Origin: Candidatus Anstonella stagnisolia
GTDB taxonomy: Archaea; Micrarchaeota; Micrarchaeia; Anstonellales; Anstonellaceae
Assembly (NCBI GenBank): GCA_902384585.1
Contig: CABMCJ010000004.1
Location: 248,001 to 312,000 of the forward strand
Length of the DNA: 64,000 bases
Reading direction: 5' to 3'
Part shown: one piece after another, positions 3,504 to 49,402 of the stretch
How positions within the stretch are numbered: position 1 is the first letter of the stretch
Layout: each line of letters starts with the position of its first letter
Notes under the pieces: generated by a model
Database searches by the model: none
What the model was told of the DNA's origin: nothing
Seen by the model: the letters and a program-made list of their open reading frames with translations, nothing else
Program-made: the position numbers and the translations under genes

Positions 3504-5078
3504 ATGCCAGTAGACGAGGGGCAGGTTGCACTTGAGAAGATGTGGCAGGGCACGTGCAGGGTGCTTTTTGGGCAAGAGCTGGGACCACTGCACGAATATG
3601 AGAAGTGGCTTTCCGAGCTTGTTGATGCCCCTTTTGTAGGCAAATCAAGCAAATCCTCAAAAGAGGTCTTTTTTTCCACGCAGAGCTATTCAAATGCAAA
3701 AAAATGCATAGGGCTGGATGAGGTTGACCTGAACCAGAAATTTCCGCCCCTTTCAATAAACCAGATAAAGGACATTGACTCGATTGCACAGGCGATTTCA
3801 GACCGCACATATTACACTGGGAACGTGATTCTTGGGAATTCGAGATATGTTTCAAAAAGCTCGAACATAACTGATGGGACTTACATTTCAAATACGACTG
3901 TTTCGGGAAATTCAAAGTACCTTTGTTACTGCACGCTTGCGCGCCTTGACAATGCGGGATTTGGGAGCAATGCATTCAGCCAGTGCGAATTCTGCCTTAA
4001 ATGCCACGAGCTCACGCGCGTGAAGCGCAGTTTCGAGCTTTGGATGAGCCAGGATTCCTCGGACTGTTATTATTCGCACGGGCTGAAGAACTGCACGGAC
4101 TGCATGTTTTCATTCAATGTGCGCAACAAGAGGTTTGCAATCGGGAACCTTATGCTTGCTCCTGACAAATACAAGGATATAAAAACGAAACTTGTTGCGG
4201 AAATGGCAACGGAAGCAAAGCGCGCAAAAAGGCTGCCCTCCCTTCTTGAGATAGTCGCAATCTCAGGAAAAGCCCCGAAAATCGCGCTTGCATCAAAGCA
4301 GCCTGCGCCAGTAGTACAGGATAAGGGAAAAATAGAGGCTGCATTTGCGCAAACAATGCAAATACTTCTTGGCAGGAAGCTTGCAAAGCCCATTGATTTT
4401 TATGCGCAATGGCTTGTGAGGCACACGCGCGGGATTGGGAAATTCAAGTCCGCAATGAGCGGCAAGGACGTTTTGCTTGCGCACTACGGTAACTATTTCG
4501 ACCTTCCGAAAGACAGGCTGCTCACGCTTGAAGAGGCGAACGAGTTTGGGATGAAGGCGCAAATTGATGCTGCTGCAGTTTCGGACTTGAGCCTGAAGAA
4601 TGCACATGCGAAAATAGGGAATATTGCATTTTTCAACTCCGACATACAGGATGGGGTGAACATGAATGACATTGAATGCACAATTACAATAGATGCATCG
4701 CTTTGCTACAGGGCGGTGTGCAGCGTGTATTCCAAATACTGCGCATATTCCTTTTGGCCGCGAAGCTGCGAATACATATTTGGCTGCGACACTGTGTTTG
4801 ACTCGTCCTTTTGCGTGAACTGCTACAATTCCGTGAACCTGAAGCGCTGCTTTGAGGTGGACAGCAGCAACTCCTGCTCTGACAGCTATTTCTGCCACAA
4901 CTGCGAGAACGTGCAAAACTCAATGTTCTGCTTCAACGTGAAAAATAAGAGGTATGCAATTGGGAACGTTGAGGTTGGGCAGGAGGCGTTCATGAAGGCA
5001 AAGGCGGCACTTGTTGCGCAGATGGCGGATGGGCTTGACAAGAACGGGAAGCTAAGCAGGGACATATTTTCCCTTTAG
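3504..5078 (+). CDS. Cys-rich protein of two homologous modules, function unknown
   Basis: I do not recognise a function. The 524 residues consist of two homologous modules of about 250 residues each. Each opens with a helix-like motif (CRVLFGQELGPLHEYEKWL; MQILLGRKLAKPIDFYAQWL). A middle region with an SSKEVFF or SGKDVLL element follows, then a Cys/Asn/Ser-rich stretch of short irregular repeats, closed by MFSFNVRNKRFAIGN or MFCFNVKNKRYAIGN and a helix. I count 23 cysteines (10 and 13). The repeat texture suggests a beta-solenoid, possibly metal-binding, and resembles Cys-rich proteins of DPANN and CPR genomes often labelled CaiB/BaiF. There is no signal peptide. ATG 3504 follows a TTTATAA box by about 30 nt, so the mRNA is probably leaderless. 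Two one-module relatives lie at 47902 and 48638. Confidence 0.8.
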   Translation: MPVDEGQVALEKMWQGTCRVLFGQELGPLHEYEKWLSELVDAPFVGKSSKSSKEVFFSTQSYSNAKKCIGLDEVDLNQKFPPLSINQIKDIDSIAQAISDRTYYTGNVILGNSRYVSKSSNITDGTYISNTTVSGNSKYLCYCTLARLDNAGFGSNAFSQCEFCLKCHELTRVKRSFELWMSQDSSDCYYSHGLKNCTDCMFSFNVRNKRFAIGNLMLAPDKYKDIKTKLVAEMATEAKRAKRLPSLLEIVAISGKAPKIALASKQPAPVVQDKGKIEAAFAQTMQILLGRKLAKPIDFYAQWLVRHTRGIGKFKSAMSGKDVLLAHYGNYFDLPKDRLLTLEEANEFGMKAQIDAAAVSDLSLKNAHAKIGNIAFFNSDIQDGVNMNDIECTITIDASLCYRAVCSVYSKYCAYSFWPRSCEYIFGCDTVFDSSFCVNCYNSVNLKRCFEVDSSNSCSDSYFCHNCENVQNSMFCFNVKNKRYAIGNVEVGQEAFMKAKAALVAQMADGLDKNGKLSRDIFSL

Positions 5079-43253: not shown

Positions 43254-44822
43254 ATGGAAAATAAGCAAAAAGAACTTGACAAGGGAGCCGCGGCGTCGGA
43301 TGCGGAACTTGACAAGGGAAGCATGCACTGGTCGCAGCAGCTTGCGCAAGAGGTAGTGCAAAAGGCAAAAGAGCCGTATTTGATAAGCGCGGGCATGACA
43401 ACGAGCGGGCCGTGCCATCTTGGGACGCTTTGCGAATTCCTGTACCCCCAAGGCATAAAGAAAGCGCTTGAGATGCAGGGGAAAAAGGCAAAGTACTATT
43501 TTGTTGCAGACATTTTTGATGCGTTTGACGGCGTTCCTTCTGTTTTTGAGAAGTACAAGAGCGTGCTTGAGCCGCACCTTGGAAAGCCGCTTTATGTTGT
43601 GCCTGACCCAACTGGGAAAACTGCGAGCTTTGGGGAGCATTTCATGACCGAGGCGCAGGAAATAATGAAGCATTTCGGGGTGGAAGCGCAGATAATAAAG
43701 ATAAATGAGGTTTATGCAAAAGGCGCGTTTGACAAGTATGCAAAGCTCTTTTTGCAGCAGGAGGAGAAAGTAAAAGAGGTTGTTGCGCGCACTAGCCTGA
43801 GGAAAGAGCTTCCTGCAGACTGGTCGCCCATAATGCCTGTGTGCGAAAAGTGCGGCAGGATTGCGACCACGCGGGTTACGGAGCACACTGATGAGAGTTA
43901 CAAGTATGCGTGTGATAAGGACGTGAAATATACTAAGGGATGCGGGCACAAAGGTGAGAATAAGCTTTCAGACCACAAGTACAAATTGAACTGGAGGCTG
44001 CACTGGCCTTCTTGGATGGATTATTTTGGCACAAGCATTGAGGGAGCGGGAGTGGATCACCACACGAGGGGGGGAAGCTGGGACACGCTTCTTGGAATAT
44101 TTAAGGAAATTTTCAAGAAAGAGCCGCCAATCGGGTACAAATTCGGGTTCATACTTTTTGAGGGAAAGAAATATTCCAAGAGCAAGGGAACTGGGATGGG
44201 GGTTTCGCAGCTCATGAAGCTGCTGCCTCCTGAGGCGATAAAGTACATGCTGCTAAAACCCGACTTGCAGGAGAATATAGATATCAATCCCACAAGCGTG
44301 AACATGCTGAGGCTGCTTGAGGACTATCAGGGTGCGGTTGCGCTCATTGGGGCGGATGAGGAGAGCATGAGCAGGGCGGACAGGAAAAGATTGCAGGCTG
44401 CGAGACTCTCAAAAATACATGAGTGGAAGACCGCTTTCCTTGATGTCATATTATATAGGCAGCTTTATGGAAGCTGGGAAAACGTTGCGAAGGAGAGCAA
44501 GGATGCTGCGGGCGTGAAATATCTTTCTCATTACATTGAGGAGTGGGAGAAAGCAGGGTTTATACCTGAGGAATATTCGTACAAGTACATGCCGCACAAA
44601 GCAGAAGGGAAGCTGAAAGAATTCTTTGAAAGCTTGAAAGATGGGATACAACCCATTGAGATACACAATGCGGTCTTTGAGTTTGCAAAAGCGAATTCCA
44701 TACAGCCTGGGGATTTCTTCAAGTCCATTTACCAGCTCTTGCTTGGGAAGGACAAGGGGCCCAAGCTTGGGAAATTCCTGCATGCGCTTGGGGTTTCGCG
44801 CGTGAAAAAGGATGTGCTTTGA
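43254..44822 (+). CDS. lysS: lysyl-tRNA synthetase, class I
   Basis: Charges tRNA-Lys with the class I enzyme characteristic of most archaea. Class I signatures are GMTTSGPCHLGTL (HIGH-like) and KYSKSKGTGMG (KMSKS-like). A zinc-binding segment begins VCEKCGRIATT. The length of 522 residues is normal. ATTTTAATAAATAAG upstream gives a possible promoter. Its stop overlaps the next start as TGATG. Confidence 0.95.
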   Translation: MENKQKELDKGAAASDAELDKGSMHWSQQLAQEVVQKAKEPYLISAGMTTSGPCHLGTLCEFLYPQGIKKALEMQGKKAKYYFVADIFDAFDGVPSVFEKYKSVLEPHLGKPLYVVPDPTGKTASFGEHFMTEAQEIMKHFGVEAQIIKINEVYAKGAFDKYAKLFLQQEEKVKEVVARTSLRKELPADWSPIMPVCEKCGRIATTRVTEHTDESYKYACDKDVKYTKGCGHKGENKLSDHKYKLNWRLHWPSWMDYFGTSIEGAGVDHHTRGGSWDTLLGIFKEIFKKEPPIGYKFGFILFEGKKYSKSKGTGMGVSQLMKLLPPEAIKYMLLKPDLQENIDINPTSVNMLRLLEDYQGAVALIGADEESMSRADRKRLQAARLSKIHEWKTAFLDVILYRQLYGSWENVAKESKDAAGVKYLSHYIEEWEKAGFIPEEYSYKYMPHKAEGKLKEFFESLKDGIQPIEIHNAVFEFAKANSIQPGDFFKSIYQLLLGKDKGPKLGKFLHALGVSRVKKDVL

Positions 44823-45925
44823 TGAAGGGCGCGCAACGGATGGGGGAAGCCAATTCTTCTTATTACAGGAAAAAGGGAAAGAGGATTTATTCGGATTTCA
44901 AGACTTATGCGCATTCCGGAAAACTTCTTGCTCAGGCAAATGCAAAAGAATTCTGTGAAAAATTCGGCGGAAAAACTTCTGGAGAAGCGAATTTTGGGAA
45001 TGCGGGCGGAAGCGGCGGAGTTTCAAAGGATTCTGTTCTTGTTGCGGAGTTCGGCGTTGGGAACGGGAAGTTTGTGCTGGATTTTCTTGAGGAAGTGAAA
45101 AAGAAGGATGCAACGCTCTATGCCCGCACGCATTATGTGCTTTTTGATTTTTCAGAAAGGATGCTCTCAGATTCGCAAAAAACCCTTGCAGCGCATTTGG
45201 AAAAATGCGAATTTGTTGAGTTTGATGCCTCAAATGAGAAATTGCCCGCAGAGTTTGTTGGGAAAATAAACTATGCGCGCATGAACGAGCTTCTTGATGA
45301 TTTGCCGTGCGAATTTTATGCGCTTGAGAACGGAGAGGTTGTGGAAGCCGAGTTTGATGCGGATGGGAGGCTTACGGGTTTTGCCGGAGTGGGCGGGCTT
45401 GCGCAGGATTTTGAAGGCGTTGAAGATGGAGCATTTGAAAATTGGGATGAGGAAAAACCCAAATCTGCGCTTAGTGGGATTGGTGAGGCTGATGCAGGGC
45501 AATTGCAGCGCGCTCTTCTTGCAGAGGAGTTTTTGCAGAGGGTTGGCGAGGGGTACATCCTTCCTTTTAATTTTGTTGCATGCGAATTCGCGTGCGAGCT
45601 GGGGAAAGCACTTGCGAAAGATGGCATGTGTGACATTTTTGATTATGGGTTTGCAAGCGCAGAAGATATTGTTTCGCAGCCTTCGCACATGTGGAATGAG
45701 AATATTGTGCGCGAGTTTGACGGGCAGCTTACTACTGATTTGAATGTTCCGCTCTTGTGCGCATTTGCAAAGAGCGCGGGTTTGAAAGTTCAGGCAGAGG
45801 GGCAAAAGGAATACGTTGAGAGCGTGCTTGGGAAGAAAGTTTCAATTGAGGATACCAAATACAGCAGGAGCGCGCGGGGAATCGGGGAGAGCGACATGTT
45901 TTATCATGTTAGGATTGTGCGATAG
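44822..45925 (+). CDS. MidA/NDUFAF7-like SAM-dependent methyltransferase
   Basis: A 367-residue methyltransferase of the COG1565 type. SAM motif I is VAEFGVGNGKFVLDFLEE, preceded by the family's N-terminal RIYSDFKTYAHSGKLLAQ, and NYARMNELLDDLPCEFY follows. The mitochondrial relative methylates an arginine of complex I, but no such substrate is evident here. It overlaps lysS by 1 nt, so expression is coupled to charging of tRNA-Lys. Confidence 0.7.
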   Translation: MKGAQRMGEANSSYYRKKGKRIYSDFKTYAHSGKLLAQANAKEFCEKFGGKTSGEANFGNAGGSGGVSKDSVLVAEFGVGNGKFVLDFLEEVKKKDATLYARTHYVLFDFSERMLSDSQKTLAAHLEKCEFVEFDASNEKLPAEFVGKINYARMNELLDDLPCEFYALENGEVVEAEFDADGRLTGFAGVGGLAQDFEGVEDGAFENWDEEKPKSALSGIGEADAGQLQRALLAEEFLQRVGEGYILPFNFVACEFACELGKALAKDGMCDIFDYGFASAEDIVSQPSHMWNENIVREFDGQLTTDLNVPLLCAFAKSAGLKVQAEGQKEYVESVLGKKVSIEDTKYSRSARGIGESDMFYHVRIVR

Positions 45926-45976: not shown

Positions 45977-46807
45977 GTGGCAACTGAAGATAAAGGACAA
46001 TGCCCCAAGGCAATATTGATTACACCAGCTTACAACGAAGAAGAGACAATTGCGACTATTGCGGAAAGCGGGCTTAGGATGGTGAGGGAAGGGGTTGTTG
46101 CTGATTTTCTTGTGATTGATGATGGCTCTGCTGACAGGACTGCAAACATTGCAGAAAAGATGGGCGCAAAGGTCATGAGGATTGGGAAAAATGCAGGAAA
46201 AGGGAATGCGTTCCTGCAAGGTGCGCTTTACTGCAAGAGGAGTGGCGCGGATGTTCTTGTTATTGTGGATGCGGACATACTTGAACCTCTTAAATCCGAG
46301 ACAGTAAAGAAAATGATTTTGGGAGTGGGAGCAAGGGGCGAGAATGGCCAGGTTATAGGAATGGTAATTTGCCCTGCAATTGAGGAGCAAAACTGGATTG
46401 GATGGGATATTTCTGGGCAGAGGGCAATAAGCATGAAAGCGCTGAACTTTCTTTTTGGCGTGGAGAATGCAGAGCTTTGCAAATCAAAGCCTGCAAAAAG
46501 GTTTGAAAAAATGGCGATGGGTTACGGGCTTGAACGGGCATTGAATTATGCGATAACTGGAAAAATGTTATCGGCCGGGCATACGTGGACGCATTGCGGG
46601 AGATTGGCATTTTTGGAGGAGGAAGATATGATACGATTCAAAAGGTCGTACAGGACGGACGGGGGAAGGGATGTGCGCCAAAAAGATGAGGCTGAGAGAA
46701 CGCGGATTATGATTGCAAAAAGGGCAGACCATGCAAGGAGGCTCGTTAAAATTAGGAAAGTGAAGTGGGTGGGCAGGACGCTAGCCAGAGTGATGGCGAA
46801 GTTCTGA
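45977..46807 (+). CDS. family 2 glycosyltransferase
   Basis: A GT-A enzyme of 276 residues with ILITPAYNEEETIATI, the DDGSADRT segment and the metal-binding VIVDADILEP. It resembles glucosyl-3-phosphoglycerate or mannosyl transferases but I cannot choose. The start is a GTG at 45977 with TTATAAGC about 28 nt upstream. There is no membrane helix. It converges on the Lrp-like gene. Confidence 0.75.
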   Translation: MATEDKGQCPKAILITPAYNEEETIATIAESGLRMVREGVVADFLVIDDGSADRTANIAEKMGAKVMRIGKNAGKGNAFLQGALYCKRSGADVLVIVDADILEPLKSETVKKMILGVGARGENGQVIGMVICPAIEEQNWIGWDISGQRAISMKALNFLFGVENAELCKSKPAKRFEKMAMGYGLERALNYAITGKMLSAGHTWTHCGRLAFLEEEDMIRFKRSYRTDGGRDVRQKDEAERTRIMIAKRADHARRLVKIRKVKWVGRTLARVMAKF

Positions 46808-46843: not shown

Positions 46844-47806
46844 CTAAAAATATACCTGCTTGTATTCCTTCTTGAACTGGTAGTATTCCGTGTGCGAGAT
46901 TGCATCGCTGAAAGCCGCTTTTATGCTGTCCTGTATTTCCATGAACTCGTCAAAGCTTTTTGCGTGGATGTCAAGCTCTATGTCTGCACCTCCGATAACG
47001 TCAAAGGCGTAGATTACATTCGGAATTGCGAAAAGGAATTTCTTGAGCTTTTCATACTTGGAAAAATCATCCAAGTATATGTCCAGCTTGAAATATTCAA
47101 ACCCTATTTTTTCCAAGTCCAGCTTGGGGCGCGCAAAGAGTAGCACGCCATTTTTGCGAAGCGCGCTTATCTTATAATGCACTTGTGCAGGGGAAAGGGA
47201 AAGCTCCTTTGCGATTTGCACATAGGTTTTCCTTGCATTCCCTGCAAGGGACTGCAAAATGCGCTCGTCTGTTTCGTCTGTGAGCTTTTTGGGAGTTGCA
47301 TCAACAACTACTGGAGGGAGGGGGGCTTGATGGGTGGGAAGGAGATAATTCCTCCTGAACTGGTAGAACTGGCTGTAAATTCTGAACTTGAAATTCCTAA
47401 AGTGCGAGCGGTATTTGGAAAGGATTTCTATTTCCTTTTTGCGCACGTCCACTACGTCTTTTCCAAACCAGCCAAATGCCAAATCGTATTCGGGAGTCAT
47501 GTCAAAGAGCCACCAGATATCCTCCCTTCCTTTGTAATATTCCAGTATTTCCTTTCTAAGCTGGGGAGAAACGTGGTGCAGCTTTATGTACAGGGCTGCC
47601 ACGATGTGCCCGACTTTTGAGAAATCTATCACGTAGATGTATTTTTCTATTACGCCCTGCTCCTCAAGGCGCTTTACGCGGTAAGTTATCACGTCCCTGC
47701 CTGCTTTGAGCTTTTTTCCTATCTTTGCAAAAGATTGCGTTGCATCGCAGTCAAGCTCGTAGAGTATTTTCAGGTCGAGCTTGTCTAGAGTTATTTTTTC
47801 GCTCAT
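46844..47806 (-). CDS. double Lrp/AsnC-type regulator
   Basis: A 320-residue protein with two tandem Lrp-like halves. Helix-turn-helix regions lie at about residues 8-55 (LDLKILYELDCDATQSFAKI, ITYRVKRLEEQGVIEKY) and 175-225 (YVQIAKELSLSPAQVHYKIS). Each is followed by a beta-alpha-beta effector-like domain, the second ending IGGADIELDIHAKSFDEFME. Duplicated Lrp proteins could act as pseudo-dimers within one chain. It is divergent from the one-module Cys-rich gene at 47902 across 95 bp of AT-rich promoter DNA, which it may regulate. Confidence 0.75.
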   Translation of the reverse strand: MSEKITLDKLDLKILYELDCDATQSFAKIGKKLKAGRDVITYRVKRLEEQGVIEKYIYVIDFSKVGHIVAALYIKLHHVSPQLRKEILEYYKGREDIWWLFDMTPEYDLAFGWFGKDVVDVRKKEIEILSKYRSHFRNFKFRIYSQFYQFRRNYLLPTHQAPLPPVVVDATPKKLTDETDERILQSLAGNARKTYVQIAKELSLSPAQVHYKISALRKNGVLLFARPKLDLEKIGFEYFKLDIYLDDFSKYEKLKKFLFAIPNVIYAFDVIGGADIELDIHAKSFDEFMEIQDSIKAAFSDAISHTEYYQFKKEYKQVYF

Positions 47807-47901
47807 ATTTCTACATTATACTTAAAAATATATAAATATTTCTTATTTTGTAGGAAAAATATGCAAGAAATTTAATATAAAGTGAAAAGCAGAATAAGCC
47901 C

Positions 47902-48636
47902 ATGGACATAGGCGACTCCTTCAAATCAACATGCAAAATCCTCCTTGGGGAGGAAATTGGCGAGCTTGCGGAGTTTGAGCCATACTTGAAGGAAATGCTT
48001 GCAAAAGGGCTTGCTGTAAAGTCTTCTGTCTCTGGGAAGGAAGTTTTCCTTTCAAGGGAGCACTATTCCAAAAATGCGAAATTCGTTGCACTTGAGGAAG
48101 TTGGGACAAAACAGCCTGCACTAAACGTGAATAGCATAAAGGACATTGATTCCATACTTTCCTCTCTTGGGGAATTCGCATATTGCGGAAACAAGAACTT
48201 GGGGATTTGCACAAACGTGCGCAAAAGCGATTCGTGCTCGGATTCTACGGAAATAGTTTCTTCAAGCGAGGTGCTGGGCTCAAAATATATTGCAAACTGC
48301 TATGGGATGCGCCAAAGCGAGCACTCTTTTGGGTGCATGCTTGGGGGAGAAGTGGGGTTTTGCATAAAGGGGCACGTTGTTTTCTATTCCAAAAGGTGCT
48401 TTGAATCGTATTTGTGCTTCCGCTCTACGGATTTGTATTCGTGCTTTAACTGCAGGGGATGCGCGGACTGCATGTTCTCGTTCAACCAGGTTTCAAAAAG
48501 AAATATGGTGGGGAATGTGGAGCTTCCAAAGGAGAAATACCTTGTGCTCAAGAAAAAACTGCTTGGGGAGGTTGCGCAGGTGTTGAGGAAAAGAAAATCT
48601 TTCCCAAGCGTTTTTGAGCTTGCTGGAGGTGCCTGA
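47902..48636 (+). CDS. Cys-rich one-module protein, first of a pair
   Basis: A 244-residue homologue of the N-terminal module of the protein at 3504. It shares CKILLGEEIGELAEFEPYL, SGKEVFLSREHYS, NSIKDIDSI and the closing CADCMFSFNQVSKRNMVGN. I count 13 cysteines, mostly in the second half. ATG 47902 has a TTAATATAA box about 27 nt upstream. Its stop is separated by 1 nt from the next gene, whose ribosome binding site lies inside this one. Function unknown. Confidence 0.75.
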   Translation: MDIGDSFKSTCKILLGEEIGELAEFEPYLKEMLAKGLAVKSSVSGKEVFLSREHYSKNAKFVALEEVGTKQPALNVNSIKDIDSILSSLGEFAYCGNKNLGICTNVRKSDSCSDSTEIVSSSEVLGSKYIANCYGMRQSEHSFGCMLGGEVGFCIKGHVVFYSKRCFESYLCFRSTDLYSCFNCRGCADCMFSFNQVSKRNMVGNVELPKEKYLVLKKKLLGEVAQVLRKRKSFPSVFELAGGA

Positions 48637-48637
48637 A

Positions 48638-49402
48638 ATGGACAGGAAAATAGAGGAGGCATTTGCCTCTGCAACAAAAATATTGTTTGGAAAGCCGCTT
48701 TCCCCTATTGGGAAATATGAGAAATGGCTGGTTGAGAGGACGCCTGCTGCTGCAAATGTAAAGTCCGCGCTTGGAAAAGGCGGCTGTTACATGCCGGACT
48801 ATTCTTTTTTCGGGAGGGTTCCTAGAGCAAGGATTGCGTCAAAAGAAGAGTTTGAGGCTGCTGGGAAAATGAAAATGCAGGGGCTGAGCGAGGCAAGCAC
48901 GCTTGCGCAAATTGCGAATAAGCTCAAGGAATTTGCATATTTTGTGCCGGACTATTCGGAAGGAAGCAATGTGAATGTGCAGAATTCCACAGGATATTTC
49001 AACTGCATGAACATTGCAAACGGGTTTGATATTTTTGACACGAAAAATTCGGGAGATACTTTTTCTGTGATGGGCTCGGAAGCGGTTTTTGGGAGCTACC
49101 GCATACTCACGTCAAAATTTCTCATACATTGTTACAATGCGTACAGCCTGAATAGGTGTTTTGAGATGGACTATGCGAAAAACTGCAACGATTCTATGTT
49201 CTGCCACAATGTGGAGAGTTTGGACAACTGCATGTTCTGCTTTAATGTGAAGGGGAAGAGGTATGCGATTGCGAACTGCGAGGTTGGAAGGGAGGAGTAT
49301 TTGAGGGTGAAGAAAATTGTAGTGGACGGGATTGTTGCGGCGCTTGAAAGGGACGGCAAGCTGGGGTTTGACGTGTACAATGTGCTTGGGAAGGGAAAAT
49401 GA
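48638..49402 (+). CDS. Cys-rich one-module protein, second of a pair
   Basis: A 254-residue homologue of the C-terminal module at 3504-5078. It shares TKILFGKPLSPIGKYEKWL, SLNRCFEMDYAKNCNDSMFC and NCMFCFNVKGKRYAIAN, with nine cysteines. ATG 48638 is fixed by a perfect GGAGGTG 5 nt upstream; the longer frame from 48614 overlaps the previous gene. Adjacent, coupled expression of the two modules that are fused elsewhere suggests they form a stoichiometric complex. Confidence 0.75.
   Translation: MDRKIEEAFASATKILFGKPLSPIGKYEKWLVERTPAAANVKSALGKGGCYMPDYSFFGRVPRARIASKEEFEAAGKMKMQGLSEASTLAQIANKLKEFAYFVPDYSEGSNVNVQNSTGYFNCMNIANGFDIFDTKNSGDTFSVMGSEAVFGSYRILTSKFLIHCYNAYSLNRCFEMDYAKNCNDSMFCHNVESLDNCMFCFNVKGKRYAIANCEVGREEYLRVKKIVVDGIVAALERDGKLGFDVYNVLGKGK

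Follow-up and report, generated by a model that had tools for sequence, protein, structure and literature searches.

The window analysed here is a stretch of 64,000 nucleotides from the genome of Candidatus Anstonella stagnisolia, a member of Micrarchaeota (contig CABMCJ010000004.1, positions 248,001 to 312,000; G000:C4:248001-312000 in our genome and contig numbering). The genome is 1.33 Mb long and 89% complete. The window encodes two members of a large family of paired-module proteins, whose two modules (named N and C) are fused in one chain or encoded by two neighbouring genes. It is strongly supported that N and C are obligately paired, that their repeat core is lined with Cys, and that the family co-occurs with an ATPase, often adjacent, and is accompanied by adjacent regulators. 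Support is equally strong for regarding N and C as two halves of one obligate cytosolic protein with pseudo-symmetry, derived from an ancient internal duplication; each half is predicted to consist of N-terminal helices, a small beta-solenoid and a C-terminal helix. For their function, which we infer, our tentative proposal is that a cytosolic translocase ATPase uses the solenoid pairs as exchangeable recognition adaptors or acts on them as cargo.

Sequence comparison places the homology among the four modules of the window far beyond chance. Pairwise blastp gave E 2e-46 between the N modules of the fused gene and the split pair, E 2e-49 between the two C modules, and E 7e-17 to 7e-24 between N and C modules, while profile-profile alignment of N against C with hhalign reached a probability of 100% and E 1e-56. 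Since N and C are homologous, the protein is taken to be the product of an ancient internal duplication. A maximum-likelihood tree built from 19 N and 19 C modules gave the N/C bipartition 100/100 support, and it places the members of all three split pairs in this genome on the expected N or C side. The first-pass annotation of the window had described the fused gene, the split neighbours and their homologous modules, and had placed N with N and C with C; both points are confirmed, and no grouping by locus was seen. The motifs it listed as common to the modules reflect genuine homology but not literal strings, as SGKE/D occurs in two of four modules, the spacings are off by one, the split N module opens with PYL instead of WL and the split C module closes with IAN, so that the opening and closing motifs are approximate only. 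The four modules at two loci are real as well, but represent only 2 of the 19 units of the genome.

These 19 units were resolved from 22 tblastn matches of the fused protein in its own genome, and comprise 15 intact fused genes, one fused gene with a stop and three split pairs. Five fused copies, the broken one included, are clustered at C4:676685-687374, and the other units are dispersed. The broken copy carries an in-frame TGA (G000:C4:684277-685806; L010:12265-13824) and is either interrupted by a stop or an assembly error. Other Micrarchaeota genomes contain up to a few dozen family matches, counted in draft genomes and affected by contig ends. A contig search for relatives returned the best 80 of 177, and among the related loci from named genomes, the 76 best belong to Micrarchaeota, 'Ca. 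ainarchaeum' or unclassified archaea.

Across this genome and the related loci, 173 fused frames and 30 same-strand, adjacent N-then-C pairs were counted, and no intact lone module was found, the four apparent orphans being fragments or broken genes. The split junctions span -11 to +7 nt, with ATGA overlaps among them, a geometry that implies translational coupling. In the window, both genes of the pair lie on the same strand with 1 nt from the N stop to the C-gene ATG, upstream of which a ribosome-binding-like GGAGGTG is located at the junction. The fused or split state changed at least eight times across 159 concatenated units, as read from a quickly built tree in which some supports are low. 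Sequencing frameshifts fail as an explanation of the split genes for 28 of the 30 pairs, which possess a start codon and coupling geometry, and the remaining two (L063 and L093) may be frameshifts. Collectively, the N/C bipartition, the lack of lone modules, the coupled junctions, the repeated changes of state and the confident model of the fused chain provide strong indirect evidence that N and C form an obligate pair, covalent or not, and lend partial support to the heterodimer proposed from the two loci of the window. In ten related loci, the fused gene showed no conserved link with the CysRS gene upstream of it.

The fused protein was modelled by AlphaFold2 together with 117 relatives, with a mean pLDDT of 87.6 and a pTM of 0.88. 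A pTM this high for a chain of two halves of 250 aa each suggests that their mutual arrangement is predicted with confidence, and the fused chain is confidently predicted to form one two-module body. The description of the protein as Cys-rich was correct, with ~22 Cys in 520 aa; these residues are, however, core positions of a repeat. Of the 13 Cys in the split N gene product, 11 share a single residue phase modulo 3. Every solenoid column containing 25% Cys or more is in phase 1 modulo 3 in both modules, and 92% and 95% of their solenoid Cys lie in this phase (permutation p < 5e-5). The inward phase consists to ~80% of Cys, Ser, Ala, Val, Thr, Ile and Leu, with 3.5-5% charged residues. Spaced at intervals of three and interchangeable with Ser, Ala and Val, the Cys line the core of a beta-solenoid, in a pattern characteristic of solenoids that turn one residue in three inward.

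The abundance of Cys, some of them spaced C-x2-C-x2-C, could also indicate metal-binding proteins of the metallothionein or zinc type, an explanation we regard as highly improbable. Among 24 Cys-rich solenoid columns, all of which are in the inward phase, only C472 (97%) and C193 (92%) are near-invariant, and the other 22 are often occupied by Ser, Ala, Val or Leu; an invariant set of Cys/His ligands is not present. As Ser, Ala or Val can take the place of Cys at most positions, metal ligation is not a likely property of the family as a whole, and the suggestion of the first-pass annotation to look for metal binding was weakly motivated. Metal binding is the only rival that is clearly disfavoured. 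Conservation is highest in the last part of the C solenoid (461-480, mean entropy 1.0 bit), and the C module contains the nearly invariant polar residues R444, E447, H461, N462, E464, N474 and K476. The sequences upstream of 152 starts revealed no hydrophobic leader, and 118 family proteins showed no convincing transmembrane segment.

Searches of Pfam, NCBIfam and PDB with single proteins matched no family, and a PDB profile search yielded one match only, a chance one that is Cys-rich. Foldseek with the model of the fused protein returned nothing significant in PDB and BFVD. No phage or plasmid relative was found by tblastn, no relative in the viral contigs searched, and no description of the family in literature searches. 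A weak, consistent match of all three window proteins to phrog_15341, a phage family of unknown function in PHROG, was observed (E 0.01-0.044; best E 1.6e-9 in the genome search), in which the match registers shift and which may reflect only a common periodicity of Cys repeats; such weak matches extend to all family members. The Tenebrio-type antifreeze beta-helix resembles the family in its inward-facing every third residue and its core rich in Cys, Ser and Ala. Unlike it, the family is not secreted, has conserved flanking helices and gives no significant Foldseek match. A Cys-rich repeat probe modelled on proteins of CPR bacteria, which are similar in appearance to the family, yielded no usable evidence of a relationship; it matched only weakly the Cys-rich repeat proteins of Campylobacter phages CP220, CP20 and CPt10 and Vibrio phage 1.238, some annotated as 'insect antifreeze protein', which are possibly another group of Cys-lined solenoids; the probe matched no viral contig. 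In the libraries searched, the main component is thus without a significant relative by sequence or by fold, and we know of no system that combines a single ATPase with many locally regulated solenoid pairs. For these two reasons, we regard the two-module solenoid family as categorically new.

Recurrent neighbours of the family were found by clustering the genes around ~90 loci. The commonest is an ATPase of 580-900 aa, found at 22 loci, for the most part immediately behind the array and in convergent orientation, and it also adjoins family arrays in most of the ATPase neighbourhoods fetched. In this genome it is encoded outside the window at C4:687631-689787, next to the five-copy cluster. 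It matches TrwB_AAD_bind (3.7e-12), HerA DUF87 and FtsK and possesses the conserved Walker A and B motifs of a RecA-like ATPase domain; on these matches it is a member of the known FtsK-HerA superfamily. The best Foldseek matches of its predicted model are TrwB (1.6e-7), HerA (1e-6) and VirB4 (1e-5). Library matches were obtained to CedD of NCBIfam (3.4e-14) and, in PADLOC, to mad8 (7e-15) and HerA models, and its scores lie far below the cut-off for the curated HerA families NF040819 and NF042943, as for every named subfamily. The likeness to HerA, TrwB (VirD4), VirB4 and CedD concerns this ATPase only and not the solenoid. It differs from them in having its own N-terminal domain and a variable, disordered-looking C-terminal tail. 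CedD combines a transmembrane domain with a HerA/VirB4-like ATPase domain (PMC11868833), whereas no N-terminal transmembrane anchor was found in the ATPase, the hydropathy maxima of which are just at the threshold and lie within the ATPase domain. The tail (L010:15406-17787 and homologues) is long, Glu/Lys-rich and probably disordered; it ends Lys-rich in several genomes and is absent in some.

The family and the ATPase occur together to a large extent. Among 59 relatives, 31 have both, 24 neither and four are discordant (two with the family only, two with the ATPase only; p 4e-12). Among 245 genomes of the phylum, 38 have both and 200 have neither, three carry only the family and four only the ATPase (Fisher p 2e-36), so that the ATPase occurs in 38 of 41 family-positive vs 4 of 204 family-negative genomes; one of the four ATPase-only genomes, G023, has a weak family match. 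The ATPase is single-copy in nearly all genomes, in contrast to the many family paralogues. Joint presence and joint absence recur inside several genera (e.g. g3, g13, g19, g20 and g22), and shared ancestry alone therefore does not explain the co-occurrence. An alternative, which we consider unlikely, is that the solenoid proteins are independent enzymes or nucleic-acid-binding proteins and that the ATPase accompanies them through one ecological gene set. The nearly invariant polar residues of the C module and the ATPase-only genomes G002 and G029 would fit such independence, against which stand the direct adjacency of the ATPase, the strength of the phylum-wide association and the concordant presence and absence inside genera.

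The ratio of one ATPase to many paralogues and the nearest fold, TrwB/VirD4, also recall a secretion system, in which the ATPase would be a coupling protein feeding the solenoid proteins as effectors through a channel into host or neighbour cells. Effectors of such systems may go without Sec leaders, and Micrarchaeota are thought to be symbiont-type archaea. However, a transmembrane segment is lacking in the ATPase, the gene clustering shows no conserved channel or pilus gene as a recurrent neighbour of the arrays, and orthologues are well conserved among congeners. No association was seen between VirB4-like proteins and the family, which is present in 8 of 11 VirB4-bearing genomes and in 25 of the other 48 (p 0.32); this weakens a canonical type IV secretion system. 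To our minds, an effector repertoire is improbable. A VirB4-like protein is encoded in the same genome at G000:C4:513895-516144 (E 2e-32, frame 1048 aa), and several relatives have at least two; such genes suggest integrated conjugative-type elements in Micrarchaeota. Type IV secretion has been described in Patescibacteria (PMC12102498).

A role in anti-virus defence, with solenoid sensors or effectors beside a HerA-type ATPase as in HerA-Sir2, HerA-DUF4297 or MADS, appears a little less probable again. It would agree with the PADLOC matches of the ATPase and with the patchy distribution, within genera too, but the solenoid proteins matched no known defence family in PADLOC, and no nuclease or other recurrent effector gene was found beside the arrays. 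Up to 19 dispersed units, many with an adjacent regulator and conserved orthologues, are also unlike known defence islands. HerA-Sir2, HerA-DUF4297 and HerA-NurA share with the present system a HerA-like ATPase and an associated cytosolic protein; the partner here, in contrast, is a many-copy paired solenoid with no nuclease or NADase match, whose units are separately regulated.

The second recurrent neighbour is a double-HTH (helix-turn-helix) Lrp/AsnC-type regulator, mostly divergent, and the third is an HTH_10 regulator located upstream in tandem; some units have a candidate TrmB-like regulator, named by sequence appearance only. In this genome, six of the eight full-length double-HTH regulators, including that of the window, adjoin family units (binomial p ~3e-9 against a rough background). 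Mapped on the family tree, the regulator type carries a mild phylogenetic signal, as it changes 20 times against 22 or more times in 200 shuffles. When this genome is compared with a congener, the closest orthologues share 76-79% identity, variable solenoid included, and paralogues ~40-50%. This contrast makes the paralogues look like stable specialists, as expected of specialised adaptors, and the conserved orthologues weaken hypervariation of the antigenic type.

The adaptor reading is preferred because of the co-occurrence and adjacency of the ATPase, its single copy against many paralogues, the adjacent regulators, the conserved orthologues, the lack of an export leader or clear transmembrane segment, and the obligate pairing. 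N and C, covalently joined or made as two coupled chains, are predicted with strong support to form one body, and in the proposed mechanism each solenoid pair would act as an exchangeable adaptor, or cargo, of the single ATPase. The last rungs of the C solenoid, which are the most conserved (RCFE-x-D ... CHNCEN ... FCFN-x-K ... GN), may together with the tail helices offer a common docking surface, and the variable mid-solenoid may bind a target specific to each paralogue. The adjacent Lrp-, HTH_10- or TrmB-like regulator would select which pair is produced, and the ATPase would then pull or remodel the bound nucleic acid or protein. Joint action of pair and ATPase, and the steps of docking, recognition and translocation, are our interpretation. 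Several observations weigh against it. The link between solenoid pair and ATPase is drawn from co-occurrence and adjacency, and the ATPase model is of low confidence (pLDDT 63). The conserved outward polar residues of the C module could be an active site. Three genomes have the family with no detected ATPase, possibly owing to incomplete assemblies, and in G002 (L127:9641-11980) and G029 (L138:8237-10273) the ATPase is present with no family member detected. In the latter two, unrelated genes surround the ATPase, which was maybe kept after loss of the family or has a second role.

Within the window, the split pair is preceded by a divergent regulator gene, and the intergenic region between them may serve a regulatory role (Table 1). 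Further upstream, a Methyltransf_28-family protein, a putative SAM-dependent methyltransferase (44819-45925, E 3e-14), adjoins a glycosyltransferase (45977-46807), unusual company in a reduced archaeal genome.

Table 1. Family genes and associated features in the window.
Feature	Position	Strand	Length and evidence
Fused N-C gene, both modules in a single chain	3504..5078	+	524 aa; 22 matches in own genome; AlphaFold pLDDT 87.6, pTM 0.88
Double-HTH Lrp/AsnC-type regulator, divergent from the split pair	46844..47806	-	HTH_24 E 1e-20; HTH_AsnC-type E 3e-17
AT-rich divergent intergenic region, presumed promoter/operator	47807..47901		95 bp; imperfect inverted repeats in the sequence
N-type module gene of the split pair	47902..48636	+	244 aa; open frame; in N clade
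C-type module gene of the split pair	48638..49402	+	254 aa; ATG 1 nt after the N stop; in C clade

About 30 kb of the 1.33 Mb, some 2% of a streamlined archaeal genome, is given to this one uncharacterised family. Considered with one ATPase and the adjacent regulators, a set of hypothetical proteins becomes a defined system with testable parts. More tentatively than for the adaptor role itself, we suggest an undescribed ATP-driven machine, in which one soluble HerA/TrwB-like translocase would work with many exchangeable two-module solenoid adaptors or cargo, many with their own regulator. The co-occurrence with a DNA-pump-like ATPase points to an unrecognised molecular machine, and the system provides a handle on what Micrarchaeota do inside cells or with their neighbours.
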